Virus record (IMG/VR): IMGVR_UViG_3300048836_000349
Location: 1-33,190 of that record
Source of the DNA: a virus
Reading direction: 5' to 3' (one strand)
DNA length: 33,190 bases
The position numbers and the translations under genes were made by a program. The notes under the pieces were generated by a model. The model did no database searches, was not told the DNA's origin, and saw only the letters and a list, made by a program, of their open reading frames with translations. Positions 982 through 25,632 of this stretch are shown here, in pieces. The stretch's first letter is position 1. The number at the start of each line of letters is the position of its first letter.

Positions 982-1536
982 TTAAGAACCAACGACTGCA
1001 ATGTACTCGGTGTGAGTATTACCGTTGCTGTCAGGGAATGCCTGAAACAGTGCTGGGTAAGCAATCGGGTCACCATCAGTGTAAGTGATGTCGCCGCTAC
1101 GGTCAGCAATGGCTGCGTATGGCACAACGATACGCTTTACGCGTCCGCCGGTCATAACCAGCTCAAATACTACCACTACACGAGGCAGTGGGGTGCTGCT
1201 TTGAACAACAGTGATGTTGTCTCCAGCAACCGTAACATTGTCCTCACCGTAATATACCTTGAGTGCGTCTTCGTTGGTTTCGAGAAGATTGACCATGAAA
1301 GTTTCGCCAAACTTAGTTTGACCGTTCAGCACGAGGTCGCCACCCCATGCGTTTACTTCCGATGTATCAGTCTTGACCGAGTTAACCAAGCCATCTTCGC
1401 TAACATACCCTAGACCTTTAAAGGCTGCATCTAGAGCATCTGTTGCGTTGGTTGGCAGTGTAGTACCGGCAGGTGCTACAAATACTGCGCCAGTGGCTTT
1501 AGGTTTACCAAACGAGACATTTTCGGCATCGTTCAT
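982..1536 (-). CDS. Major tail (tube) protein
   Basis: The 184-residue protein fits a siphoviral tail tube subunit in size and composition (beta-rich, acidic, with short N-terminal GKPKATG and APAGTTLP segments). It sits directly upstream of the chaperone pair and downstream of the neck genes, the usual place. It has its own extended -10 promoter (1601-1609), an AGG-type ribosome site and its own terminator (942-961), as expected for a highly expressed structural gene. No membrane segment or enzymatic motif is present. It should polymerise as rings around the tape measure. Confidence 0.85.
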   Translation of the reverse strand: MNDAENVSFGKPKATGAVFVAPAGTTLPTNATDALDAAFKGLGYVSEDGLVNSVKTDTSEVNAWGGDLVLNGQTKFGETFMVNLLETNEDALKVYYGEDNVTVAGDNITVVQSSTPLPRVVVVFELVMTGGRVKRIVVPYAAIADRSGDITYTDGDPIAYPALFQAFPDSNGNTHTEYIAVVGS

Positions 1537-2825: not shown

Positions 2826-3272
2826 CTATGACCCATATATATCTGCCGTAGTCGTCTTTATACTACTGAGCTTTTGGTTACCATATAATCCTAGATCGTG
2901 TAGTTCCGACTTTTTGAACCACAGATCGCCAGATGGGTTGGTATATTTGATATTTTCAGAGTATGGACCGGCTGTTTGCTGGTATGTATCTACAGGTGGC
3001 AGGTCGGTTGGAGTAAGCATTGCGCGCTTTGTAGCCTCCATAACTACCCATTGGACAGTTACGAAGTATGCAGGGTCGCCATTAACAAGCTCGTCCATGT
3101 CGCCATGACCTTGCTGGGTGCTAATGGTGCGGAGTCGGTTACTAGCGAGCTTAAGCAGGCTATTTGCTCGAGCCTTTTCATCATCAGCAGTTATAGGCTT
3201 CCAGAATGCGCTTAGATCTTCGTCATTAGCGTATGCGTTGGGTGATTCAACTGGTGTTGTAACGCCTGCCAT
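2826..3272 (-). CDS. Head-tail connector / adaptor protein
   Basis: The 148-residue protein starts at the last base of the portal gene (1-nt overlap). Its central part (ANSLLKLASNRLRT, then VQWVVMEATKRAM) is a helical bundle, and the C-terminal half ends SSIKTTTADIYGS. This pattern matches the Gp19/Gp15/HK97 gp6-like adaptors that sit under the portal in actinobacteriophages. It should dock the neck to the portal ring. The assignment is from family recollection plus position directly after the portal. Confidence 0.7.
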   Translation of the reverse strand: MAGVTTPVESPNAYANDEDLSAFWKPITADDEKARANSLLKLASNRLRTISTQQGHGDMDELVNGDPAYFVTVQWVVMEATKRAMLTPTDLPPVDTYQQTAGPYSENIKYTNPSGDLWFKKSELHDLGLYGNQKLSSIKTTTADIYGS

Positions 3273-6218: not shown

Positions 6219-7130
6219 TCAGGCGCTAGGTGCTACACCGTCAAGCAGTGCAAATGCATCGTAGTCCATGAAACCGAAGCCGATCACGCTCTCGGCGCGG
6301 ATAGCAACTTCGTTGGTGCGCTTAAGGTCACCGTTGCCATCTGGATCACCGAACTCGATCAGTTCGAGAGGCATGTCGCGAGCGACACCCCACTTGAATG
6401 CTTCAAAGTCGCCCATGATAGCATCAAGAGTTGCATCCTCTTCAGCGAGTTCCTGACGACCGCTAACGGTATCGCTAGAAGCTGCTGCCAAACCTTGGAA
6501 ACTGTCGAATGCGAAGCCAAGACCAAGCTCTGGGTATCGCTTAACACCCTGTTCAGTCTCGGAGCGAGCCAATGCACCAGCGTAAACTGGGTCAAATGCG
6601 ACACCAGTGGCTGAGTAGCCGTTGCCCTGCAGAGCTGCTGCTAGAGCTTCGATGTCAACATTGGCATCTGCGGTACGAGTAACGACTGCAACACCGTTAC
6701 CACTCTTACGGAGGTATTCCGTAACAGCACCAGTAGTACCGTCTACTGGGTTCACGCCATGAATGGCAAGCAAGTCAAGCGCGCGGCTGATTGCTGTGGC
6801 GGCGTTGGCTACCAAGTTCTCAATAAGCTGAGTCTGGTAGTCTTCGTCTTCCCACTGAACTTCGTTGCTAAAGCGGTAAGTGATCTGGACTTTGTAGGTC
6901 TTAACAGTTTTCTTACCGGGAGTACCACTCTGTGAGCCTTTGTTACCAGACTCGCCGACAAGCTCCGCCTTTGGAGTGCCGGTAAAGGTAAAGTGGTCAG
7001 TGCTGCCGACCTTTAGGTCTGGCTCACCGGGTGTAAGCTTTGCAAGTACACCACCTTTAATGTTTTTACGCCAAGTTTTACCTTGGTGGTTTGCTAGGTT
7101 TAGGACTGATGTCCTTAAGGGAGTAGCCAT
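6219..7130 (-). CDS. Major capsid protein (HK97-fold type)
   Basis: The 303-residue protein has the size and layout of HK97-fold capsid proteins without a long delta domain. The N-terminal arm begins MATPLRTSVLN, and an E-loop-like segment follows (about residues 55-90, GNKGSQSGTPGKKTVK). Helical parts include NLVANAATAISRALDLLAIHG, and the C-terminus runs AESVIGFGFMDYDAFALLDG. A separate scaffold-like gene lies just upstream, so scaffold is not fused. The gene has an AAAGG ribosome site and its own terminator at 6179-6196. No protease gene was recognised nearby. Confidence 0.9.
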   Translation of the reverse strand: MATPLRTSVLNLANHQGKTWRKNIKGGVLAKLTPGEPDLKVGSTDHFTFTGTPKAELVGESGNKGSQSGTPGKKTVKTYKVQITYRFSNEVQWEDEDYQTQLIENLVANAATAISRALDLLAIHGVNPVDGTTGAVTEYLRKSGNGVAVVTRTADANVDIEALAAALQGNGYSATGVAFDPVYAGALARSETEQGVKRYPELGLGFAFDSFQGLAAASSDTVSGRQELAEEDATLDAIMGDFEAFKWGVARDMPLELIEFGDPDGNGDLKRTNEVAIRAESVIGFGFMDYDAFALLDGVAPSA

Positions 7131-7720: not shown

Positions 7721-8086
7721 TTAACGCCGACAAAAAACATCGCAATAAACTTGGTATCGGTGGTACTGCGCGATTACATCATCTAGGTTCACGACTGAGT
7801 TTACCGCTGCATGGGTAAGGTTATCTGATACTGACTCCAGCTCCCTAATGCGGTCTGCAATAGTATTAGCTTGGTTTTTTGCTTCTACGCGACTAGTTTT
7901 ATGGTAAACCTCTATCAATATCTCGGCGCGATCCAATACCATAGCCTCGCGTGGGCCGCCGGTACGATCTACTAGTACATATTTTTCTGGCAGTTGTTTT
8001 GGCTTGTCTCCGTAGGCTGCCCAGCCTGTAGGCAATATAGAATTAAGCCATGCTACTGTTGCCTCTTCTGCATCTAACTTAGCCAT
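7721..8086 (-). CDS. Tail completion / tail terminator protein (putative)
   Basis: The 121-residue protein shows the alpha-beta pattern of phage tail terminator or neck proteins. It starts with a helix and the WLNSILPTGWAAYGDKP segment, then strands (KYVLVDRTGG, AEILIEVYHK), a helix (ANTIADRIRELES) and closing strands. It overlaps the preceding head-closure-like gene by 8 bases. Proteins of this type cap the tail tube and join it to the head. Unusually it is upstream of scaffold and capsid. Confidence 0.6.
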   Translation of the reverse strand: MAKLDAEEATVAWLNSILPTGWAAYGDKPKQLPEKYVLVDRTGGPREAMVLDRAEILIEVYHKTSRVEAKNQANTIADRIRELESVSDNLTHAAVNSVVNLDDVIAQYHRYQVYCDVFCRR

Positions 8087-8414
8087 TTATGCACTCCCCT
8101 CTAAAGTAGCGATTCCAGCGCGTTGGGGTATTCTCGTCCATAAAGACTACACTATCACTATCAATATGAAAGACTTTGCCGTTCCAAGTAACATCCGAGT
8201 CGCTAACATCCTCGCTTGATGCCTTTGGCATGTGAATACGAACCTGATCCCTGCTCTGTTCCATTGCCTGTTGCTCTCTTGCGGTAGCTGGCTCAATAAT
8301 AGGGGCAATTAGGCAGTCGTCTACATCTACGCTCTCTGTCGTATAGGTTGGATTATTGAGTGCATCGACTCCTGATTCCACCTGCTTGACGAATGTTAGT
8401 GTTATACCCTTCAT
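8079..8414 (-). CDS. Head closure / head-tail stopper protein (putative)
   Basis: I place the start at ATG 8414 (MKGITLTFVKQVES) rather than an in-frame ATG 33 codons upstream. The extension lacks beta character, and an extended -10 box (TGGTAGAAT) ends 7 nt before 8414. The 111-residue protein is beta-rich, with VDDCLIAPI, VRIHMP and VTWNGKVFHID segments, like small head-closure proteins of siphoviruses. It is coupled to the tail-terminator-like gene. The family call is by pattern and neighbour. Confidence 0.55.
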   Translation of the reverse strand: MKGITLTFVKQVESGVDALNNPTYTTESVDVDDCLIAPIIEPATAREQQAMEQSRDQVRIHMPKASSEDVSDSDVTWNGKVFHIDSDSVVFMDENTPTRWNRYFRGECING

Positions 8415-8430
8415 ATTGCTTATTCTACCA
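8415..8430 (-). promoter_or_regulatory. Promoter abutting ATG 8414 (leaderless)
   Basis: Reverse strand TGGTAGAAT (-10 TAGAAT at 8422-8427) followed by 7 nt and ATG. No GGAG-like site is present between them. It would start the leftward head operon. Confidence 0.55.
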
Positions 8431-8514
8431 TATTTATTACGCCACAATACCGCCCACAAAAAACGCTTGGCAAATTCAGCGCCAGAAATTAGGCATTTAT
8501 ACGGCGGAGTCATT

Positions 8515-8700
8515 CCGCTAGAAAGGAAGGGCGACCTCCCCCCCTGTTAGTTTGCAAGTAAAAAAATAAATTATTAAATATTAAATTATTAAAAGTTTTA
8601 TTATTTGTTTGCTGCTACCGGCTGGCTGGCGGAGCGATAGCACCAAGGCAAGGGCAAGCCTCGCTCATGTTATACTAACAACAGCTAAGGAATGGAGTGG
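8515..8700. other. Divergent intergenic region with extreme AT block
   Basis: There is no gene here. About 8558-8612 is almost pure A/T (TAAATTATTAAATATTAAATT-like). A run of seven Cs precedes it (around 8537-8543). GAGCGA and TCGCTC arms (about 8632-8666) enclose a GC-rich hairpin. The region separates the leftward head operon from the rightward glycosylation cassette. It could be a DNA-unwinding element, an insulator or the scar of cassette acquisition. Confidence 0.5.
8668..8676 (+). promoter_or_regulatory. Extended -10 promoter for glycosylation cassette
   Basis: TGTTATACT on the plus strand, about 25 nt upstream of the GGAG site and ATG at 8702. It gives a short leader and supports 8702 as the true start. 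Confidence 0.65.
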
Positions 8701-8701
8701 T

Positions 8702-10087
8702 ATGGACGTAGTCATAGACGGCGAGCGGTACATAAAGCAAGCCGATACTAAAAACAAATCGATTGGTATTGGTGTTACTACACACAACCGCAACGTACTG
8801 GTAGCCAGTACTGTAGCCAAGCTCCTAGAGCTTACACCAGAGGCTAGGCTAGTGGTGGTAGACGATGCCAGTAGTAAGCCTGTATCCATAGACGGAGTAG
8901 AGGTCTACCGCTTCGACACCAACGTAGGCATCGCACGTGCCAAGAACAAGTGCCTAGAGCTACTGGCTGACTGCGACCACATCTTCCTATTCGATGACGA
9001 TACATACCCACTGCAGGCAGGCTGGTACAAGCCTTACATAGCCAGCCCAGAGCATCACCTGATGTACCTGTTCAGTGACTGGGCTAGTGGTAAACCTGTG
9101 GGTGACGACCGGGTGCTATACCAAGACAACCACCACAGGGCGCACCACCATGCAAGGGGTTGTATGATGTACGTTGATAGCATTGCGCTTGCTACTGCAG
9201 GCGGTATGGACGTGCGCTATGGTATGGCTATGAACGAACACCTAGACTGGAGTATACGCATACACAATGCCGGGCTTACCAGCTTCAGGTATATGGATGT
9301 CGTTGGTAGTGAACAACTTATATACTCAATGGATCAGCACCAAGAGGTACGCACTAGCATAGACAACCGGCTCACACACAAGGAAGGTAACGACCATCTG
9401 CTGCAGGATGCCGAGGTTTCGTCTGCCTATATGCCTTATGGCAAGGATGTGGTTATAGCCTGCTACTTTGCCAATGTATTAGACCCACAGAGGGGTGTTA
9501 AGTGGGATGCCGACTATAAGAACATTGAAAAGCTACAGCGCTCTGTGGAGGCGCAGGGTATCGAGTTTGTGCTAATCCACAACTGTTTTGACCTCCCTAA
9601 TAGGGTAACTATCTCCACAACCCCTTATTTCGAGCGTTGGCTTAAGGAATGGCAGTATTTACGCGATAGGCGCGATATAAGCAACGTTTTTGTAGTAGAT
9701 GCCACTGATGTCGATATGGCAAACAATCCATTCCCTCATTTAGAGGATGGCAAGCTCTATATTGGCGATGAGCCAACTGAGCGGCTTAATAATCGCTGGA
9801 TGTTGACAAAACACCTCGAGCCAAGCGTAAATCGCTACTTACGCGAGAATGGCGACCTTCCATTGCTGAATTGCGGCGTTGTTGGCGGTAATCGCAAGCT
9901 AGTAATGGCTTTGTGCCGAGATATGTACCTTTATCACGTTAATGCGCCTCAAGACCTTACTGAAATGGGTATTTTTAATAAATTGATGCATACAAAGTAC
10001 GCTCCGCTGATTGAATACGGCAGATTGGTGACTTCCCTGTTTAAGAAATATGAAAGGCAAACAAATGCTTGGTTCAGACACAAATAA
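8702..10087 (+). CDS. Two-domain glycosyltransferase (GT2-type N-terminus)
   Basis: The start at ATG 8702 is chosen because GGAG lies just before it and the promoter lies between it and the further upstream GTG/TTG codons. The product has 461 residues. The N-terminal half is a GT-A fold of family 2 type, with TTHNR (26-30), VVVDDAS (51-57), NVGIARAKN (74-82) and the metal-binding FDDD (97-100). The second half has another glycosyltransferase-like core, with DATDVDM (333-339) and LLNCGVVGG (388-396). It probably transfers sugars from nucleotide-sugars. Similar proteins are known in mycobacteriophages, where they decorate virions. First gene of a three-gene plus-strand unit; the next overlaps its end. 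Confidence 0.85.
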   Translation: MDVVIDGERYIKQADTKNKSIGIGVTTHNRNVLVASTVAKLLELTPEARLVVVDDASSKPVSIDGVEVYRFDTNVGIARAKNKCLELLADCDHIFLFDDDTYPLQAGWYKPYIASPEHHLMYLFSDWASGKPVGDDRVLYQDNHHRAHHHARGCMMYVDSIALATAGGMDVRYGMAMNEHLDWSIRIHNAGLTSFRYMDVVGSEQLIYSMDQHQEVRTSIDNRLTHKEGNDHLLQDAEVSSAYMPYGKDVVIACYFANVLDPQRGVKWDADYKNIEKLQRSVEAQGIEFVLIHNCFDLPNRVTISTTPYFERWLKEWQYLRDRRDISNVFVVDATDVDMANNPFPHLEDGKLYIGDEPTERLNNRWMLTKHLEPSVNRYLRENGDLPLLNCGVVGGNRKLVMALCRDMYLYHVNAPQDLTEMGIFNKLMHTKYAPLIEYGRLVTSLFKKYERQTNAWFRHK

Positions 10088-10727
10088 GCACATTTACGCA
10101 TACTGGTGGCGACCACGCACTGGACCGCACAACTTTGGAGATGAATTAGGGGCTATTATCTTGCGAAAGCTCGGTTATAAGGTACATCGGACCGCTTTTG
10201 CAAAAGCCGATGTGTTACTGACAGGCACAATGCTAGACCCAGCCGAGATTAAGAACCCTAACGCTACTGTTATCGGTACTGGCTCGGGCTATACCCACGA
10301 TGCAGAGCATAATTTCAATGTACTAGCTGTTAGAGGGCGACTTACTGCAGAAGCGTTAAAAGTAGATGTTCCACTTGGCGATTTGGGGCTTTTGGCTTCT
10401 CGTATCTGGTTAAAACAGCCTGCCAAGTACAATATTGGTGTTGTGCGACACTATGTAGACCAAGACGAGTACCCTTTTGCGGACATAGTCATAGATGCTA
10501 CCGAGCCTGCAGAGGAAGTCATAAAGAAAATATCAAGTTGCCGCGTAATACTCTCTAGCTCGTTGCATGGCATGATCGTAGCTGACAGTTATGGCATACC
10601 AAGTGGCCGCATAGCTCGCGATGATGTTATTACTGGTAATTGGAAGTGGATGGATCATAAAACAGCTCTTGGTAAGCCTATGAGCGATATACAAGATGCA
10701 TTATTGGAGGCAATAGCAAAACTATGA
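10065..10727 (+). CDS. Polysaccharide pyruvyl transferase family protein
   Basis: The product has 220 residues, starting at ATG 10065 with AAAGG 7 nt upstream (ATG 10050 is an alternative). NFGDELGAIIL (23-33) and the C-terminal ISSCRVILSSSLHG (156-169) followed by ADSYGIP are hallmarks of this family, which has a GT-B-like fold and usually adds pyruvyl ketals to sugars. It is shorter than the usual 300 residues or more, so the N-terminal domain is reduced. Phage members may act as glycosyltransferases instead. It overlaps the previous gene by 23 bases and the next by 4, so the three are expressed together. Confidence 0.85.
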   Translation: MLGSDTNKHIYAYWWRPRTGPHNFGDELGAIILRKLGYKVHRTAFAKADVLLTGTMLDPAEIKNPNATVIGTGSGYTHDAEHNFNVLAVRGRLTAEALKVDVPLGDLGLLASRIWLKQPAKYNIGVVRHYVDQDEYPFADIVIDATEPAEEVIKKISSCRVILSSSLHGMIVADSYGIPSGRIARDDVITGNWKWMDHKTALGKPMSDIQDALLEAIAKL

Positions 10728-11365
10728 GAATTACTATTACTGTAATGGCACATCCGAAGCGCAAGGCACAAGCAGAGGCTCTGGCACTCCAGCTAAAGCA
10801 ATACCCTTTCATGGACGTTTCTATTACTTGGGACGAGGTAAACGAAGAGTGGGATACTGGCAAGCACGCTATGTGGCGTGGGACTGGTCGGGGCGACTGG
10901 CACGTTATTATTCAGGACGATGCTATATTGACTCCTCACTTCTATGAGAATGTGCTAGGGGCTATTAATGCTATGCCAGAGAGGTCGCTTATTTCGCTCT
11001 ATACTGGCACAGCTCGCCCGATACCCGATAGGGTCAAGTCTGCAGTAGACAAAGCGCCTGACGGCTCGTGGTTGCGCTTCCACCAGCTACTTTGGGGAGT
11101 GGGTATTGCTATACCAACAGACCAGATAGAGCCTATGCTGGAGTTCGTGGATGATGTAAACCTGCCTTATGATAATCGGATCGGCGAGTTCTACTGCCGT
11201 AACGGAGTAACCGTTTACTATACTGTACCGAGCCTAGTAGACCATGACGATGATTTAGATACTTTACTAGAGGGGCATGGTAGGCACGTCAGCCCAGAGC
11301 CACGTAGAGCGCACCGGCTTGCTAGTAAGCTAATACACTGGACCAACCAAAAAGCGCCCATTTAG
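10724..11365 (+). CDS. Actinophage-type glycosyltransferase
   Basis: The 213-residue protein begins RITITVMAHP and has WDTGKHAMW (43-51), VIIQDDAIL (61-69), SLYTG (91-95), LLWGVGIAIPT (122-132) and YTVPSLVDH (166-174). QDD resembles the metal-binding motif of GT-A enzymes. The whole pattern closely recalls a glycosyltransferase family annotated in many mycobacteriophages and other actinophages (recollection, not a search). It ends inside the hairpin at 11351-11373. It probably modifies the same glycan as the two upstream proteins. Confidence 0.8.
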   Translation: MRITITVMAHPKRKAQAEALALQLKQYPFMDVSITWDEVNEEWDTGKHAMWRGTGRGDWHVIIQDDAILTPHFYENVLGAINAMPERSLISLYTGTARPIPDRVKSAVDKAPDGSWLRFHQLLWGVGIAIPTDQIEPMLEFVDDVNLPYDNRIGEFYCRNGVTVYYTVPSLVDHDDDLDTLLEGHGRHVSPEPRRAHRLASKLIHWTNQKAPI

Positions 11366-11512: not shown

Positions 11513-12130
11513 CTAGTAGTTACTGTTTGCGAGCTTTGGCTCATATAGAGCAGGGGCTACTATCTTCGTATTTTCGCTGGCTAGTACGTTGCAGGCAAAT
11601 GCCACCCAGTCAAACCACGTTCCCTCTACACAACAGCTCTCGTCCTTGCCATGAAGTCGGAACATATCATCGGAGTTACTTACTACTGGAGCTTGAGAAA
11701 TATCTTTGTCTGGGTTCATTAGACCGGCAAGTCCTGTATATGCAGAGTAGTCGGTGTAATCGCCAGACACAGCGTTTACCCTTTTAGCGCCGCTAACGTA
11801 CTTTGACTTTAGCTTCGGGTCTGGGTGTATGTCGTAGTTTGGTAAATGGTTTAGATGCAGGTTGTGAACCAGCAGTTTTGTAGCTCGACAGTGGAGTATG
11901 CCGAGGGATAAGCGTATAAGGTCGTGCCAGCTTAATATTGGATTGCCATTTGGCTCAAAGACCCACCAGTCCCCAAGAGTGCCTCGCTCTAGCCCTGTAG
12001 CCTCTCTAATATCTTCATCTAGCTTAAGCTCATCAAATACATTCTCGTCCAATGCGTACTGGTGTACATCAGGCTTGTATTCAAATAGCGAGTACATTGC
12101 CTTGTAATTTTCGTTTGTAAAGTCGCTCAC
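11513..12130 (-). CDS. Hypothetical protein, last gene of early operon
   Basis: This 205-residue acidic soluble protein was not recognised. It contains many Asp, Tyr and Trp (for example TLGDWWVFEPNG and TWFDWVAFACN) and two adjacent cysteines in DESCCVEG. No membrane segment or nucleotide-binding motif is visible. It follows the HTH gene after three bases and is the last gene before the terminator. It could be a host-takeover or counter-defence protein, judged only by its place in the early accessory cluster. Confidence 0.6.
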   Translation of the reverse strand: MSDFTNENYKAMYSLFEYKPDVHQYALDENVFDELKLDEDIREATGLERGTLGDWWVFEPNGNPILSWHDLIRLSLGILHCRATKLLVHNLHLNHLPNYDIHPDPKLKSKYVSGAKRVNAVSGDYTDYSAYTGLAGLMNPDKDISQAPVVSNSDDMFRLHGKDESCCVEGTWFDWVAFACNVLASENTKIVAPALYEPKLANSNY

Positions 12131-16767: not shown

Positions 16768-17499
16768 TTATGGGTTGGCTTTTTTGAATGCGTGAGCATA
16801 CTTCTGCGAGCATAGCGATCGGAACTCCATATCGTCTGCTATATCTTCTGCAGGGAATACGTCAAACTCTGGTATAAAGCGGATGTGACCTTTATGCATA
16901 AAAGCTAGTGATGGCTTGCTGCGCCCCGGGCGAGTATATAGACCCTCTAGCTTTGGAACATCAGCCCAGTCGTTATATACGCGTGGTGGGATATTAAACT
17001 CTCCCCACAGAGCCGTTCGCTTGCTCCAAGGGCTACCATACCACCAAGGCTCGTACTGATATGTTGCCGGACCAAGATAGTCTTTAAGCCTGCCCTTGGC
17101 TGGGTTTTCTATTACCCACCATTTTAGATGCCCGGCTTCCTTGGCTTCAGCAATGACACGCTGGCACTCTTTTACTAGATACATCCCATCGTCTGGGTTT
17201 CGCGCTTTGCCGCTACTACGAGCAGTCGAGAATTCTAGGCATGGAGGATTGGCTATAATTCCATGCACCTCTAGTCTGCTGCCATGATATGCCTGCCAGC
17301 GCTTAAATGAGAAGTTCTCGACACCAACGCCGATGCCGACACGAATTACTGTGTAGTCGCTATCCTCTTCGTAAGGCATGGTGTCTGAGCCAGTATCGGC
17401 ACACAGGTGCAGTATTACTTTTGTAGGTAGTGCTTGATCGCCGGGTTCATAGTCCAATACGATCGGCTGTATTTCTTTCTTGCCCCAGAAAAACCTCAT
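16768..17499 (-). CDS. DNA cytosine-C5 methyltransferase-like protein
   Basis: The 243-residue protein has a class I methyltransferase layout. A SAM-site-like LHLCADTGSD lies at 30-39, a catalytic ANPPC at 83-87 and WVIENPAKGRL at 128-138 (the ENP motif of C5 enzymes). A C-terminal region with WWYGSPWSKRTALW follows. The target-recognition domain is shorter than in full C5 methylases (usually 320 residues or more). It could modify phage DNA against restriction, perhaps acting without a cognate nuclease. It starts at ATG 17499, overlapping the upstream stop (ATGA). Confidence 0.8.
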   Translation of the reverse strand: MRFFWGKKEIQPIVLDYEPGDQALPTKVILHLCADTGSDTMPYEEDSDYTVIRVGIGVGVENFSFKRWQAYHGSRLEVHGIIANPPCLEFSTARSSGKARNPDDGMYLVKECQRVIAEAKEAGHLKWWVIENPAKGRLKDYLGPATYQYEPWWYGSPWSKRTALWGEFNIPPRVYNDWADVPKLEGLYTRPGRSKPSLAFMHKGHIRFIPEFDVFPAEDIADDMEFRSLCSQKYAHAFKKANP

Positions 17500-18593: not shown

Positions 18594-18662
18594 CTAGTGG
18601 TAACTTTAATAAGGATACCAAAACGAGCCACGCGCCTGACTGCCACCTGCAAGCTCCTGATT

Positions 18663-19427
18663 ATGAAACCATTACTTACATCTGCGCTTACGGTCGCCAT
18701 ATTAGCAACTCCAACGACCGCTTTAGCACAGCCACTATCTTTCAATAGTGATATAAACTCTATATTCAGTTTTAAGTACCCTACTACGAGCCAGCCTCTA
18801 GTAATCCAGCCAGATAAAAAAGAAGAGCCGAAACAAAAGGCAGTTACTCCTGCAGAGCCAGTAAAACCTGCGCCTGTTGTGTATACGGTTGTTGATGGCG
18901 ACAATCTAAGCAAGATCGGGACCGCTTACAATGTGGAGTGGCAAAGGCTCTGGGCTAAGAATACCCAGCTTACAAACCCAGACTTAATACATGTTGGCGA
19001 TCAAATAACGATACCAACGCCAGACGAGGTGCTACAACGTGATTTGCCTGCAGTAGTAAACCTCCCTGCAAATACGCCCGATGTAACTCCTCTGCAGAAC
19101 TACAGTGCTTCTAGCGGAGCAGGTAATACTTACGATTACGGTTATTGTACTTGGTATGTAAAAAATAGGCGTGGCGCATCATTACCTAACGGACTTGGTA
19201 ATGCTAATACTTGGTATGCCAGAGCGCAAGCAATGGGTATGGCGGTTGGATCAGCTCCTCGACCGGGTGCAGTTGGTACTACAACTCGTGGATCGCTTGG
19301 GCATGTCGTATACGTTGAGTCAGTAAATGGCGATTCTATAACCATATCTGAAATGAATGCAAGCGCAGGCTGGGGCGCTGTTAATACTAGAACTGCCAGC
19401 GCTGGCGAGTTTCAGTACATCTACTAA
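18663..19427 (+). CDS. Secreted LysM-CHAP peptidoglycan hydrolase
   Basis: The product has 254 residues. I choose ATG 18663 because it opens a clear signal peptide (MKPLLTSALTVAILATPTTALAQ, cleavage after about residue 22). A Pro/Lys-rich linker follows, then a LysM domain (74-118, YTVVDGDNLSKIGTAYNVEW) and a CHAP domain with catalytic Cys162 (GYCTWYVKNRRG), His214 (LGHVVYVESV) and a Glu/Asn near 230. CHAP enzymes cut peptide or amide bonds of peptidoglycan. A Sec-exported enzyme with its own promoter and terminator, separate from the lysis cassette and on the opposite strand, is unusual for a phage. It may loosen the wall from outside, help adhesion, or be an acquired host gene. Confidence 0.9.
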   Translation: MKPLLTSALTVAILATPTTALAQPLSFNSDINSIFSFKYPTTSQPLVIQPDKKEEPKQKAVTPAEPVKPAPVVYTVVDGDNLSKIGTAYNVEWQRLWAKNTQLTNPDLIHVGDQITIPTPDEVLQRDLPAVVNLPANTPDVTPLQNYSASSGAGNTYDYGYCTWYVKNRRGASLPNGLGNANTWYARAQAMGMAVGSAPRPGAVGTTTRGSLGHVVYVESVNGDSITISEMNASAGWGAVNTRTASAGEFQYIY

Positions 19428-19884: not shown

Positions 19885-21363
19885 TTAAACCATTATGCGC
19901 TGGGTGCTTCCAGTAGATCCGCTTTGTTTTTTAAAGCGGACCGCACCGTAATATGCAAAAGCCGCCGCTTCGGTTGGATCGGATTGTATATCTGTATTCA
20001 TACTGGCATAACCGAACATGCCGTCTCTACCAATATCACGCTTTTTTACTGTCCTGATCGATACGTTAAGTGCGGGCTGGTCGTAATGGGTTAGGAGCTG
20101 TTGTTCTATACCCTCCATGAACGATCCATAGGCTGCGCCTGCCTCTTTTACGTTGGGAGTTAATATCCGTTTGCTTATTTTACGTTCGGACCGTACAAGC
20201 TCCTCTACGAGTAGCTGTGTGCCTGCTGCGCCGTCAATAATTATCTTGTTAGCCTTACGCCAGCGGTTCTCCGACAATAACCAAGCCGTCAGCCAGTGTG
20301 TGCCTGCGCTCATGGGCTTGCGCTCTATTAACTCGATATGCACCTTACCATTAGGCATTAAAACGCCCACAGCAAGCGATACAGCGCTTCTATCGGGTGC
20401 AAACTTGATCGCATAGACTAGGTTCGGGTTTTCAGGCAGTACAACCTCTTTGACGGCTAGAGGTAGCCACTGATCGTCTGATATAGCTCGCATGTTCTCT
20501 ACGCCTGCTATCCAGCCGAGGCGCATCTTGTTAAAGCTATCGACCGCCATTTGCCCTGCCTCTTTTTTAACTGCAGACGGCATTAGGAAGTAACCAAGGC
20601 TAGGGTTGGCTTGATACCACGCATCTTGGTCGTCAGGCTCTGTAATAGTTTCTACGGACCACTCCTGCCAGCATACATCGGTGGTCTTGCCGTCTAGTAC
20701 CTTACGGCGCATGCGTACAAAGACTGTACCATTACCGCCACCGCTTGGAGGTGTACCAGCGCGAATAGTTTGGTGGTTATGGTTTTTACCTGCAGAGATA
20801 GTAGGCAATAGCGCCTCCTGCTGGGCATCGGTCTCTTCCTGTGCCTCGTCCAGTAGCAATGTATCGTTGGTACTACCCAGACCGTTAGTACGAGTACGCG
20901 TTCGGAATACACAGCGCCCTCTATTGCGAAGCTCCACATAGTCTAGGCTCTTAGGGTCTTTATCAAACTCCTCTGTAAGCATGTCGCGGATCTCCTCCTC
21001 GGCATCGTAAAAGAAGCGCTGAATACGGCGTTTAATTTCTGTAACGGTAGTTTCACTCTGGGCTGTATAAATAATAGCCTCGCCCAGAAATACCATGCCA
21101 CCGACAATGCGAGCTATTAGAAGCTCCGATTTACCGTTCTGTCGTGGCACTAGCAAGCCACAGTCGGGGTTTACCCATACCCAGCCGTCTCCTGCTTCGT
21201 TTGGCTCTACTGCCATCCAGCGGTACAGAATAGATCGTTGCCAAGGTAAAAGCTTAACTCCGTAATGCTCTAGGAGTTGGACGGTTTTGTCGGCTAGCCA
21301 TATATCGCCATTACGGTATATATCAACGCGTGGTTTCTGATTGCCTTTTCGTGTCTCTGCCAT
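19885..21363 (-). CDS. terL: Terminase large subunit
   Basis: The 492-residue protein has the ATPase Walker A-like PRQNGKSE (73-80), and Walker B LLLDEAQE (169-176) with the catalytic Glu. A C-terminal nuclease region with acidic residues follows (AIKFAPDRSAVSLAVGV, KIIIDGAAGTQLLVEEL). PRQNGKSE with LLLDEAQE is typical of actinophage and related siphoviral enzymes. It pumps DNA into the procapsid at the portal. It starts two bases after the small subunit. Placement next to Dam and ParB, and far from the portal gene, is unusual. Confidence 0.95.
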   Translation of the reverse strand: MAETRKGNQKPRVDIYRNGDIWLADKTVQLLEHYGVKLLPWQRSILYRWMAVEPNEAGDGWVWVNPDCGLLVPRQNGKSELLIARIVGGMVFLGEAIIYTAQSETTVTEIKRRIQRFFYDAEEEIRDMLTEEFDKDPKSLDYVELRNRGRCVFRTRTRTNGLGSTNDTLLLDEAQEETDAQQEALLPTISAGKNHNHQTIRAGTPPSGGGNGTVFVRMRRKVLDGKTTDVCWQEWSVETITEPDDQDAWYQANPSLGYFLMPSAVKKEAGQMAVDSFNKMRLGWIAGVENMRAISDDQWLPLAVKEVVLPENPNLVYAIKFAPDRSAVSLAVGVLMPNGKVHIELIERKPMSAGTHWLTAWLLSENRWRKANKIIIDGAAGTQLLVEELVRSERKISKRILTPNVKEAGAAYGSFMEGIEQQLLTHYDQPALNVSIRTVKKRDIGRDGMFGYASMNTDIQSDPTEAAAFAYYGAVRFKKQSGSTGSTQRIMV

Positions 21364-21364
21364 A

Positions 21365-22153
21365 TTAACCCTCTACATCCTCTATGGTTACTCTTGATCT
21401 GAAGCTCATGTGATCCGCACCTTTGCCGTTTTCACTTGGGCGCTTACGCTTAACATCTGGCATATCGCCCATTAGCTGACCGAGCTTAGTTTCTTTTTTT
21501 GGACCGAGTCGCTTTTCATAATCTGCAATTTGAGTCATGATCTCGGTCATTTCACGCGTCAGGAGCGCCGTATCTCGGCTACCAGCGCCTTTGTCGAGTT
21601 TCTCGGCTATTTTATCGCGTGTAGCCATTAGAACGCCCAGACGGTCGTTTTCTAGCGCGAGCTGGGCTATTGTTTTCTTTTTCTTGTCGCCCGATGCGTT
21701 AGTAAGCCCTGCTTGGTGGATCTTGTCTATACGGTGTGGGTTGGCAATGATGTCGCGCCAGCGGAGTAGGGCAGAGTATGCTTCAGCATCCAATATATCC
21801 ATGCCAGTAGTAGAGAGTATCTGCAGTTTGCGCGCCGGTACGGTTTTAAAGTAGTTAAGCCAGCTATCATAGTCCTGCTGCTTGGTAAGTTTAATCTTGA
21901 GGTTCTTTTCATTCCACATAGCCGCTAGAGCTTGGAATTGGCTCGCCGACTGCTTTAGGAAGTACGCCTCGAACATAGCATCGGTAATGACTGGTTTTTT
22001 GGGCTTCGTAAGATTTTTCGTCCTTTTTTGAGCCGTTTTTTGTGATTTTTTTGCAAATTTAGGCACTAATTCAGATTTTTCGTCCTTTTTTGGCTTGGTA
22101 GCTTTAACAGTACCCTTGGTCTTGGGAGTGGTTGTTTTACTCTTAGCGACCAT
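21365..22153 (-). CDS. Terminase small subunit (putative)
   Basis: The product has about 262 residues (ATG 22153 preferred over ATG 22165; both lie inside the end of the Dam gene). The first 55 residues are a Lys/Thr-rich disordered tail (TTTPKTKGTVKATKPKK). The core has TDAMFEAYFLKQSASQFQALAAMWNE, and a long helical part has LALENDRLGVLMATRDKIAEKLDKG and SRDTALLTREMTEIMTQI. This last pattern is typical of actinophage small terminases, which recognise the packaging site. It is directly upstream of terL. Confidence 0.75.
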   Translation of the reverse strand: MVAKSKTTTPKTKGTVKATKPKKDEKSELVPKFAKKSQKTAQKRTKNLTKPKKPVITDAMFEAYFLKQSASQFQALAAMWNEKNLKIKLTKQQDYDSWLNYFKTVPARKLQILSTTGMDILDAEAYSALLRWRDIIANPHRIDKIHQAGLTNASGDKKKKTIAQLALENDRLGVLMATRDKIAEKLDKGAGSRDTALLTREMTEIMTQIADYEKRLGPKKETKLGQLMGDMPDVKRKRPSENGKGADHMSFRSRVTIEDVEG

Positions 22154-23069
22154 TCCAGTACACATTCTCGTAGTTATAGGTTGCCTTGTCGCTATAAGCG
22201 CTGGCTAACAGGCTTCGGGTATTTACTGCCTTTACCAGTTTAAAGCGAGGATCGCTTACCTTATAACTACTGATGTATACAGGGTAGTCCCTAGTCATGC
22301 ACCATTCATAAAATGCTTTATGGTCAAAGCCTCCCTCGCGGTACTCCGCAGTGCCTTCGTATGGTGGGTCGCAGTAGACTATGGGGCGCTCGCCGATAAT
22401 TGGTACTGCATCATAGCTCAAGCCCTTTGTAATGCCTAGACAGCTAATGCCGGGCATGTTCTCTATTTGTTTTAAGCGCTCAAGCCTTGCTAGGTGCTGC
22501 AATGCTCCGAGGTACTGTATCTGGCGCGCCAGTACAATCCTGCGCTGATAAGGCGTATGGTAGCGCTTGGGGTCTAGAAATATGCGTGTTTGAATAACTT
22601 TTTTATACTCTTTGAGTGCGTATTCGTCTGCAAACTCCTCTAGGTACTTTATGTCGCCCTCTCCAGTAGTAGCCAGCTTTGCAAGCTCCTGTTTGAAGTC
22701 CTGTATTGGTAATCCGTATAAATAGCTCTTCTGGTTGTTACCGAATGTCCAGCATGTCTGCAGTAGCCCTGCATACCAATCATCGCCTGTGTAGCCTTTC
22801 TCAAACTCTGCGCGCGTTACAAAGTCCATAGGTATTTCGCCACCGTCTTTTAAGTGCTGCATAAGGTTGCTTATGGCTAATGAAAGCTCGTTATAGCACA
22901 CATCAAGGTGCGGATACTTACGGACCACATACAAAGCCACGCTACCACCACCGCCGAACAGATCAAAGAAAGAGTCCGCATCGGGGTGTCGGTTGATTAT
23001 AAAGGGTATAATTTTATCTACTAGTTTTTGCTTTGACCCCATGTAAGGGATGCCATAGTGTCGTGCCAT
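22143..23069 (-). CDS. DNA N6-adenine methyltransferase (Dam/D12 class)
   Basis: The 308-residue protein shows PYMGSKQKL near the N-terminus (8-16), the SAM-binding FDLFGGGGS (35-43) and the catalytic DPPY (234-237). This order and size match D12-class (Dam-type) adenine methylases. No partner restriction enzyme is nearby, so it is an orphan methylase, likely for self-protection or for regulating packaging. The C-terminus overlaps the small terminase. It lies 15 bases after the ParB-like gene, a common pairing in phages. Confidence 0.9.
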   Translation of the reverse strand: MARHYGIPYMGSKQKLVDKIIPFIINRHPDADSFFDLFGGGGSVALYVVRKYPHLDVCYNELSLAISNLMQHLKDGGEIPMDFVTRAEFEKGYTGDDWYAGLLQTCWTFGNNQKSYLYGLPIQDFKQELAKLATTGEGDIKYLEEFADEYALKEYKKVIQTRIFLDPKRYHTPYQRRIVLARQIQYLGALQHLARLERLKQIENMPGISCLGITKGLSYDAVPIIGERPIVYCDPPYEGTAEYREGGFDHKAFYEWCMTRDYPVYISSYKVSDPRFKLVKAVNTRSLLASAYSDKATYNYENVYWNGR

Positions 23070-23084
23070 AATTAAACTCCATTT

Positions 23085-23576
23085 CTAATCCTCAAACTCT
23101 AGACCACAGCCGGGGCATGTATGTACATTACCCTGACTATCCTTAGAGGCTGGCTCATCGCCTTCCTCTTTGATGTCTCCGAAGTTAAAGTTTGGCACGC
23201 CCCATGCTTCCAGCTCGGCAATATCCCACTGGTTAGCAATAATATCAGTATCCCACTCACCAGAGGCGGTGTTGTCTTTGATTATAAATTCACGTTTTTG
23301 TTTTTCGCTTAAGCCTATAACCTGCTTTACGGTTACATCAGAGTATCCGAGGTCTTTAAGCGCGTATATGCGCTGGTGGCCGCCGAGGATTGTTAGGTTT
23401 TCATCTACCACTATCTCTCGGAGCTGTTTCATCTCTGGGAAGTCACGCAGGGACTTCTTGAGCGCCTCGTATGCCTTTTTATTGATCTTGCGAGGGTTTA
23501 AGTCGTTAGCTATGAGCTTATCGACTTTCTCTACATAGACCTTTACTTGTACCTCTGTTGGTTGTGCTTTTGCCAT
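23085..23576 (-). CDS. ParB-like nuclease-domain protein
   Basis: The 163-residue protein holds a ParB/Srx N-terminal domain. It has a VEKVDKLIANDLNPRKINK strand-helix, the nucleotide-binding GGHQR (65-69), then VIGLSEKQKREFIIKDN. A short acidic C-terminus ends with a half zinc finger, TCPGCGLEFED. It lacks the long HTH and dimerisation parts of chromosomal ParB. Such proteins often accompany phage adenine methylases and may regulate or guide them. No parS-like palindrome was noticed. Confidence 0.8.
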   Translation of the reverse strand: MAKAQPTEVQVKVYVEKVDKLIANDLNPRKINKKAYEALKKSLRDFPEMKQLREIVVDENLTILGGHQRIYALKDLGYSDVTVKQVIGLSEKQKREFIIKDNTASGEWDTDIIANQWDIAELEAWGVPNFNFGDIKEEGDEPASKDSQGNVHTCPGCGLEFED

Positions 23577-23652
23577 TTTCGCCTTCTCCTTTATTACCGG
23601 GTAGTTCCCGTATGCGTTATGGTTTATGGTTTAATTGTATCACAAGCGTAGA

Positions 23653-23661
23653 TGTTACAAT
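23653..23661 (+). promoter_or_regulatory. Extended -10 promoter for zinc-knuckle HNH gene
   Basis: TGTTACAAT on the plus strand, about 32 bases before the preferred ATG at 23694. It is divergent to the ParB gene. Confidence 0.5.
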
Positions 23662-23693
23662 GGTTGCATAGTAAATGGAGGTATTGGCGGTAC

Positions 23694-24074
23694 ATGGATA
23701 GGTTTCCAAAAAAGCCCTGTAAGCATTGCGGTTTGATGGGTCACTTCCCATACCAATGTCGCACAAACCCCAGAAAAGCACTGAAGCGTGTGCCTATTAA
23801 GAAAGTAGGCAAGACTACAAAACAGTGGTTTATTACTCGAGCAACGTGGATTAGAAAGAACCCACCGACAGTAGAGGGCAAATATTGGATATGCTACCTC
23901 CAAATACACCCTTGGTGTCCTGTAAAACTTACTCTAGAAACGCTAACGCTTGACCATGTAGTTAGCAGAAGTCGTGATCCAAGTCTCCGATTCAACCTTG
24001 ATAATATAAAACCTGCTTGCCAGTACTGTAATACAGAGAAAGGTAGCAAGTCGCTTGACCAAGTAAAGCCATAA
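23694..24074 (+). CDS. HNH endonuclease with CCHC zinc knuckle
   Basis: I choose ATG 23694 (MDRFPKKPCKHCG), with GGAGG about 12 nt upstream. The 126-residue protein starts with a perfect CX2CX4HX4C zinc knuckle (C9, C12, H17, C22), then a basic linker and an HNH core (LTLDHVVSRS with D87/H88, N104, and CQYC at 109-112). HNH enzymes cut DNA in homing or packaging. The plus orientation, own promoter and own terminator between lysis and ParB genes suggest a mobile, independently expressed nuclease. The zinc knuckle could bind single-stranded nucleic acid. Confidence 0.85.
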   Translation: MDRFPKKPCKHCGLMGHFPYQCRTNPRKALKRVPIKKVGKTTKQWFITRATWIRKNPPTVEGKYWICYLQIHPWCPVKLTLETLTLDHVVSRSRDPSLRFNLDNIKPACQYCNTEKGSKSLDQVKP

Positions 24075-24446: not shown

Positions 24447-24535
24447 TACAAGTCCTCCAATACATCCTCGATAGCATCTTCTATACCACCGACAATTTTA
24501 CCGGGAATCTGCAGTATCTCGCCGAAGAGTCCCAT
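24446..24535 (-). CDS. 29-residue amphipathic peptide between endolysin and holin
   Basis: ATG 24535 overlaps the endolysin stop (TAATG) and its own stop overlaps the holin ATG (TAATG). AAGGG lies 7 nt upstream. The peptide starts MGLFGEILQIPGKIVGG and ends EDAIEDVLEDL, so a hydrophobic front and an acidic amphipathic helix. The position suggests a role in lysis timing or membrane association. No family known to me. Confidence 0.6.
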   Translation of the reverse strand: MGLFGEILQIPGKIVGGIEDAIEDVLEDL

Positions 24536-25632
24536 TATTTTACCCTTATTACCCAGCCAGCTTGTACATAGTTAGCCGACATACTTGGGTACTTTCCTTT
24601 ATTCCAATCAACAAGTGTCTGAATAGGTGTGCCAAAACGAGCAGATACGTTGCCTAGGTAGCCTGCTGGACCACTAGGAATAGTAAAGTACTGTGCCACG
24701 CTTTGTGCTGGAGCGCCGACTTTCTGGTTAACTAATGCCTGTATAGCGTTTGGATCGTAACCTGCTTGCTGTAAGCGGTTAATACGCTCTTGACCATTAC
24801 CCCAGAGTCCACCGATTACTTCGTTTGCAATCTGGTCGTTTGACTTCTTAGCTGGTGCGCCACCGAGCTTTTGGTTTACGATAGCCTGTACTGCAGTAGG
24901 ATCATATCCAGCCGCACTCAGCTTGTTTTTTCGATCCTCGCCATTACCCCATGCACCAGCAATAACCTCATCGGCGATTTGCTCGTTAGTTTTCTTAGCT
25001 GGTGGAGGAGTTGGTGCTGGGCTACTGCCATCACGACCGCCCTTTGCATAAGCTCGCCACTGGTCAGGAGTTAATATGGATCGGTTAAGGTCTAGGTTAC
25101 CATTGTAGTCTGCCAAGCGCCCTGTGCTGGCGTATTGGCGTATTACTGAGCCTAGGAGCTGTGGTTCATCACGATAGCCTGTAGGGGCGCTAGATGGGTA
25201 TGCTGCTACCCACAAGCCACAATTCTCTTGCTGGGCTACTGCAGGTATGCCTTGAGCTGCTAGAGGGCTTGCAGAGCCGTAGATAATAGGTGGCACGTTA
25301 GTACGAGCCTTTACCTGCTTAACAAACGAGCGAACCCAATCAGGACCGCGCGATATAGCGTTAGCCTCCCAGTCGAGTACCAGAATAGCCTCGCCGACAT
25401 AGCCTTGTACGTTATCAATGAAGTAATTAGCCTCTGCAACAGGGTCTAGACCGCTTGCGAAGTGGTAAACACCGACAAGCTTGCCACGAGCCTTGGCTTT
25501 TTGGTACTGGGAGTCACAGAACGGCGATACAAAACTTGTGCCTTCGGTTGCTTTAATGATTACAAAGTCGTAATCCTTTACTAGCTCGGTTACGTTTGCT
25601 GGTTGCCAACCACTGATGTCTATACCGTTCAT
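24535..25632 (-). CDS. GH25 muramidase endolysin with two Cpl-7 repeats and LysM-like end
   Basis: The product has 365 residues. The N-terminal GH25 domain (1-195) shows GIDISGWQ with Asp5, KATEG with Glu30 and VLDWEA with the DxE pair (87-89). A Pro-rich linker leads to two Cpl-7 (CW_7) wall-binding repeats (217-255 and 267-304, each IA-EVI-G-WGNG ... AGYDP-A-QA-VNQK). A LysM-like end follows (313-365, YFTIPSGPAG, VDWNKGKYPS). It cleaves the glycan strand of peptidoglycan at lysis. There is no signal peptide, so it depends on the holin. GGAGGGG precedes the ATG. Confidence 0.95.
   Translation of the reverse strand: MNGIDISGWQPANVTELVKDYDFVIIKATEGTSFVSPFCDSQYQKAKARGKLVGVYHFASGLDPVAEANYFIDNVQGYVGEAILVLDWEANAISRGPDWVRSFVKQVKARTNVPPIIYGSASPLAAQGIPAVAQQENCGLWVAAYPSSAPTGYRDEPQLLGSVIRQYASTGRLADYNGNLDLNRSILTPDQWRAYAKGGRDGSSPAPTPPPAKKTNEQIADEVIAGAWGNGEDRKNKLSAAGYDPTAVQAIVNQKLGGAPAKKSNDQIANEVIGGLWGNGQERINRLQQAGYDPNAIQALVNQKVGAPAQSVAQYFTIPSGPAGYLGNVSARFGTPIQTLVDWNKGKYPSMSANYVQAGWVIRVK

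Follow-up and report, generated by a model that had tools for sequence, protein, structure and literature searches.

Virion glycosylation in phages has been reported recently, mainly in mycobacteriophages. Several of the described loci provide close points of reference for the sequence analysed here. The mycobacteriophage glycans are reported to be located at the C-termini of the capsid and tail-tube subunits (PMC12619734). A 2025 survey names Che8 gp110 and Corndog gp38 as the two glycosyltransferases without which the capsid is not glycosylated, and it finds them structurally grouped with each other (PMC12363180). Che8 has three glycosyltransferases, gp108–gp110, the last of which belongs to the family termed GT3 below. 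In Corndog (cluster O), gp35–gp38 comprise an O-methyltransferase, two glycosyltransferases and the GlcNAc-transferase-like gp38 (PMC4351075; PMC12363180).

The window, i.e. the whole 33,190-nucleotide stretch of DNA that was analysed (IMG/VR record IMGVR_UViG_3300048836_000349), carries a cassette of three genes, termed GT1, PYR and GT3 (Table 1). The original prediction held that their products could build and cap a sugar on virion proteins, and this is well borne out: GT3 is in the Che8 gp110 family, and the cassette tracks serine ends in exactly three virion proteins. We consider the cassette to be a virion-glycosylation locus with a probability of about 0.8; it would direct phage-encoded O-glycosylation of virion C-termini with a glycan capped by a pyruvate ketal.

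Genome and gene organization

An exact direct repeat of 127 bases, the size of an assembler k-mer, is present at both ends of the contig (1–127 and 33064–33190). Because of this repeat the window very probably represents a complete genome, circularly closed and about 33,063 bases long, though it is classed as linear. The − strand has a siphovirus-like set of genes (portal, HK97-type capsid, tail tube, tape measure and terminase), and the phage is very probably a complete uncultured siphovirus of about 33 kb. No DNA polymerase or integrase was recognised among the scanned products. Also present are two DNA methyltransferase-like genes on the − strand (16768–17499 and 22143–23069), a ParB-like/methyltransferase-associated gene (23085–23576) and an HNH-endonuclease-like open reading frame on the + strand (23652–24074).

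The nearest matches to the phage proteins are in phages of Actinobacteria and Firmicutes, with identities of only 33–42%. The endolysin (24535–25632), with GH25, CW_7 and LysM domains, points to a Gram-positive-type wall in the host without settling the matter. The product of the second + strand gene (18642–19427) is predicted to be secreted and combines a LysM domain with a C-terminal part that is CHAP-like; for this reason a Saccharibacteria host was considered.

Table 1. Positions of the cassette, its predicted signals and the predicted acceptor proteins in the window
Feature	Position	Strand	Remarks
Predicted cos site	8497..8508		12-nt cohesive overhang TTATACGGCGGA; from contig breakpoints of relatives
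Predicted −10 element	8671..8676	+	TATACT, preceded by TGT; cassette promoter; 25 nt ahead of start codon
Ribosome site	8689–8697	+	GGAATGGAG; 5′ of GT1
GT1, glycosyltransferase	8702..10087	+	461 aa; phrog_1579; GT2-type N-terminal part, second acidic-motif part C-terminal
PYR, compact polysaccharide pyruvyl transferase family protein	10065..10727 (alternative start 10050)	+	220/225 aa; PF04230
GT3, constant distal glycosyltransferase	10724..11365	+	213 aa; phrog_854; GT-A fold; kept in all cassette types
Major tail (tube) protein, predicted acceptor	982..1536	−	phrog_117; end ..AVVGS, Ser codon 985–987
Ad1-like head-tail adaptor, predicted third acceptor	2826..3272	−	phrog_137; end ..DIYGS, Ser codon 2829–2831
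Major capsid protein, predicted acceptor	6219..7130	−	phrog_10, PF05065; end ..DGVAPSA, Ser codon 6225–6227

The three overlapping genes predicted on the strand opposite to their neighbours, at 8702–11365, are found as open reading frames, all on the + strand. GT1 and PYR overlap by 23–38 nt, and PYR and GT3 by 4 nt (ATGA). The flanking operons are both on the − strand, which agrees with the predicted arrangement: the head operon, whose first gene is Hc1 (ORF 8079–8513, likely start 8414), lies to the left and is divergent, and an operon of small genes to the right, ending at 11513, is convergent.

One promoter common to the three genes, as originally proposed, is plausible. The motif TGnTATAnT, followed by a GAATTGGAG-like ribosome site, is found by eye upstream of the first gene in 15/16 relatives with all types of cassette, but a scan with the sigma-70 consensus makes no call at this motif.

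The contigs of many relatives end with ..CAT on the head side and begin with GT.. on the cassette side, with 12 nt missing between them. These contig ends suggest a cos site, and they fit end repair of a cohesive end, presumably of the 3′-overhang type. The predicted site is between the head operon and the cassette and is far from the terminase genes (19885–22165). With a cos site at this position, the virion DNA would have the cassette at one physical terminus and the head operon at the opposite one.

The cassette enzymes

HMM searches, which had been suggested as a check, place each product in a family (Table 1). GT1 matches phrog_1579 over its full length (E 1.7e-137), and its N-terminal part matches PF00535 (E 3e-7). 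Acidic motifs are found at residues 98–100 (DDD) and near residue 333 (DATDVDM). Since no Pfam family matched the C-terminal half, the two-domain character ascribed to GT1 derives only from the full-length PHROG match and the two acidic motifs. Homologues of GT1 with about 43% identity over the full length are present in cluster F1 mycobacteriophages.

GT3 matches phrog_854 (E 1.4e-43), and one profile matches both the window GT3 and nucleotides 58056–58664 of Che8, which is gp110. Identity to actinophage members of the family is 30–37%. Structure prediction, also suggested as a check, is informative for GT3, with an AlphaFold2 model of pLDDT 89 that has a GT-A fold, but not for PYR, whose model from seven sequences has a pLDDT of 40. 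Foldseek matches of the GT3 model include the GT-A enzymes Mimivirus R655, POMGNT1, KfiA and a PBCV-1 capsid glycosyltransferase, at TM-scores of about 0.4–0.6. A search of PDB sequences with profiles of PYR, GT1 and GT3 gave nothing useful.

PYR scores 39.4 bits against PF04230, for which the curated cut-off is 25.3. The start at 10065 is preferred over that at 10050 because one relative has a stop codon just upstream. PYR is 72–83% identical over seven phages. The motifs NFGD, GSG, VRG, GD and SSLHG and the lysine of WKW/FKF are common to PYR and other phage relatives, and R90, H168 and K194 are kept in the phage relatives. In CsaB, R148, H308 and K328 matter in PEP binding (PMC10435577). 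We infer that R90, H168 and K194 of PYR are probably the counterparts of these residues. PYR is likely to be a ketal-forming pyruvyl transferase, although this assignment is less sure than that of virion glycosylation.

The question is whether the locus might glycosylate virions with a PYR that forms no ketal, i.e. one with altered catalysis, with a different donor or with the role of a partner protein. This is possible but on balance unlikely. PYR is compact, being shorter than both the 280-position PF04230 profile and the characterised pyruvyl transferases, and the profile match covers residues 109–191 only, in the C-terminal part. In addition, the arginine two residues ahead of the catalytic histidine in CsaB (R306) is a serine in PYR, and the low pLDDT of the model points the same way. 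The strong conservation over seven phages and the motifs shared with distant relatives, among them NFGD, VRG, SSLHG and the WKW/FKF lysine, argue for a working enzyme, as does the fact that sugar-tailoring enzymes hold the PYR slot in other cassettes.

A pyruvyl transferase had been described as an unusual partner in such a set, and no relative of PYR was found in mycobacteriophages; a tailoring enzyme as such does have a precedent, the O-methyltransferase of Corndog (PMC4351075). Other phage relatives of PYR are located in large phages. A relative is present in 6/296 Actinomycetota genomes. The PYR profile found no relative in a search of genome contigs, and the GT3 profile found only a Cellulosimicrobium locus.

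Serine ends of virion proteins

Long S/T-rich C-terminal tails, which were looked for first, were not found; a short serine end came out of the comparison instead. A protein was scored as Ser-ended if its last residue is Ser or its last two are Ser-Ala. All − strand protein families of the window with at least four orthologues, 29 in number, were scanned in 14 cassette-bearing and two cassette-free genomes. Only three of these families, the major capsid protein, the tail tube and the Ad1-like adaptor, have the Ser or Ser-Ala end in 14/14 cassette-bearing and 0/2 cassette-free genomes (Fisher p 0.008). The other 26 families show 15 Ser ends among 283 proteins. As the criterion was built on the capsid and tail tube, the adaptor represents an independent prediction.

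In the 14 cassette-bearing genomes the capsid ends are APSA, TPSA, GTAS, GASS, VASS, SPSS or TPAS, and the tube ends are GS, SS, AS or SA. The cassette-free genomes have capsid ends ..SVIADA and ..YKDAA and tube ends ..EYIAVV and ..EYIATAG. The location of mycobacteriophage glycans at the C-termini of the same two proteins makes it likely that the terminal serines of capsid, tube and adaptor are the glycan acceptors.

One of the cassette-free genomes, G015, is complete from cos to cos and has an empty site in place of the cassette. In the terminase tree it falls within the cassette-bearing clade (100/99) and adjoins the window (91/88). A smaller terminase tree retains the clade but leaves the branch joining G015 to the window unresolved, and the resolution of a portal tree is too poor to place G015. 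The simplest reading is that in this phage the cassette and the three Ser ends were lost jointly. The more distant cassette-free relative may never have had a cassette.

The serine ends and GT3 are also found together outside this group. GT3 is present in 29/30 records with a Che8-like capsid, and the remaining one is a 19-kb fragment. Capsid and tube proteins of F1 phages end in GS (NKTGS/SDGS in Che8). Jabbawokkie, which has GT3, shows DES ends on both proteins, and Gordonia phage Phendrix, which has GT3 and is unrelated to the window, has the ends SGS/TGS. One of the phages with GT3, whose capsid is TM4-like (57% identity), has the end PASGS, whereas TM4, without GT3, has APAA. Among 21 capsid lineages with GT3, seven have no Ser or Ser-Ala end, and these mostly resemble Actinoplanes phage phiAsp2. 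When the 21 are compared with GT3-free lineages (0/7 Ser-ended), the Fisher p is 0.006, for lineages that are not fully independent. As a separate observation, four successive virion genes of Phendrix (gp74–gp77; L381 26573–30389) all have Gly-Ser ends.

The association could be an accident of shared ancestry, with the Ser ends serving virion assembly. The association within the group does rest on few independent events, because only two close cassette-free genomes were found, and the phiAsp2-like lineages are exceptions. An accident is nevertheless improbable: G015, nested among cassette bearers, has neither the cassette nor any of the three Ser ends; three unlinked proteins change jointly while 26 others do not; and the Ser end recurs in unrelated capsid lineages that carry GT3.

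Exchange of cassette modules

The order GT1-PYR-GT3 is kept in six other IMG/VR phages at about 51–82% identity, so that the cassette is not a chance arrangement. About 19 related phages are known when further members found by GT3 search are included; in these GT3 and the promoter are constant and the genes between them are exchanged. The arrangement of the window is termed type A. Type B (L098) has a distant GT1, about 37% identical, and a Methyltransf_24/TylF-like methyltransferase. Type C (L101) has GT1, another methyltransferase and an HNH endonuclease. Type D has an unrelated GT2-type glycosyltransferase and a methyltransferase, often with an NAD-dependent epimerase; its members are L102, L103, L106, L107, L109, L110 and L114, together with L105, which is cut off upstream, and L108, which has no methyltransferase.

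A terminase tree of 16 members of the group does not sort the phages by cassette type. Four changes are required by the PYR type on this tree, at least three of them forced by well-supported branches, and shuffled types need 5.0 on average. Thus the module moves between phage backbones, and there is direct support for exchange within the 33-kb group itself. As to the exchange with phages of Actinobacteria that the original prediction suggested, GT1 homologues and GT3-family members are found in cluster F1 with their order preserved and a small hypothetical gene between them, and the identities of about 43% (GT1) and 30–37% (GT3) denote common ancestry or old exchange; its direction is not shown.

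HNH genes are found in or beside several cassettes (L101 2120–2563, Che8 gp112, Maravista gp102/gp104 and Guppsters gp99), and homing endonucleases could be drivers of module exchange. In L002, nucleotides 3–743 carry an inverted fragment of a type D glycosyltransferase (residues 109–355, 74% identical) head-to-head with an intact type A cassette; this arrangement arose either by recombination or through chimeric assembly of two alleles. L007 has an extra 65-aa open reading frame between PYR and GT3 (8026–8223), the slot where F1 mycobacteriophages have a small hypothetical gene.

Proposed function

In the proposed pathway GT3, as the constant enzyme, would probably place the first sugar onto the serine at the extreme C-terminus of the capsid, tail-tube and Ad1-like adaptor proteins. 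GT1 would then extend the glycan, and PYR would add a pyruvate ketal cap from PEP, which gives the glycan a negatively charged end. The upstream genes would represent an exchangeable module (GT1 with PYR, a glycosyltransferase with a methyltransferase, or these two with an epimerase) that recombines between the constant promoter and the constant GT3. Such swapping would result in related phages with different surface sugars, presumably to the benefit of the phage.

The suggestion that the cassette alters the host surface finds no support here. A role of this kind, e.g. exclusion of other phages in the manner of a gtr operon, is very unlikely, even though pyruvyl transferases and epimerases are typical members of cell-surface polysaccharide loci and such a role was put forward in the past for the glycosyltransferase of an F1 phage (PMC2884959). 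Neither a flippase nor a lipid-carrier transferase is found among the cassette proteins or the further products scanned, it is with the C-termini of three virion proteins that the cassette is associated, and the capsid is the target of GT3 relatives in the 2025 survey (PMC12363180). Glycosylation of phage DNA is the least probable of all, for although GT1 has a match to the TET-associated glycosyltransferase family TAGT (20.7 bits, below the 27.5 threshold) and DNA methyltransferases are encoded by the phage, the scanned products (about a dozen small genes are outside the scan) include neither a hydroxymethylase nor a TET-like enzyme, and the tracking of virion C-termini would have no explanation. 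Both readings are set aside because the partner genes were not found among the scanned products.

Virion glycosylation is thereby extended to an unrelated group of uncultured phages, and the serine ends offer a simple means to predict which proteins, and which residue in them, are modified. What is new here is a pyruvyl transferase as cassette partner, tailoring modules that relatives exchange, a third protein that is likely to be an acceptor, and the apparent joint loss by which the cassette is linked to its substrates. A broader proposal, for which the chances seem evenly balanced, is that of a glycan-type locus, where a constant promoter and a GT3 acting on Ser C-termini bracket a swappable module, so that relatives would carry different coats (pyruvate ketal, methyl or epimerised sugars) on capsid, tube and adaptor. 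If it holds, the joint occurrence of GT3 and Ser-ended virion proteins would be a general sequence rule for which phages are glycosylated and where. Tests become possible of which phages carry glycans, of the task of the constant glycosyltransferase, and of the reasons why coat sugars vary in nature, where antibodies do not act.

Comparison with known systems

The F1 phages, Che8 and, e.g., Maravista (gp99/gp101), are like the window in having a GT3-family enzyme last, with a GT1 homologue upstream in many of them. Their cassettes are also near a genome end, and the Che8/F1 capsid and tube have the Gly-Ser end. The middle position of F1 cassettes, however, has a small hypothetical gene or other glycosyltransferases and no pyruvyl transferase, and the window differs further in its third Ser-ended protein and its phage backbone. 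Corndog, as judged by its published description, resembles the window in combining a tailoring enzyme, glycosyltransferases and an enzyme that falls with Che8 gp110 in a structural grouping, but the tailoring enzyme is a methyltransferase instead of a pyruvyl transferase and the set is inside the head operon.

In phiAsp2, pas33–pas35 encode a glycosyltransferase, a putative O-methyltransferase and a GT3 homologue in one coupled operon, and the tail tube has a Ser end (LSS); unlike the window, this phage has no pyruvyl transferase and its capsid is without a Ser end. With CsaB and Pvg1p, both of PF04230, PYR shares a family match above the cut-off and, probably, the histidine and arginine thought to bind PEP. 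It differs from them in falling short of the 280-position profile and in its location in a phage glycosylation operon. The swapping of modules by these phages can itself be likened to the exchange of surface-sugar types among bacteria.
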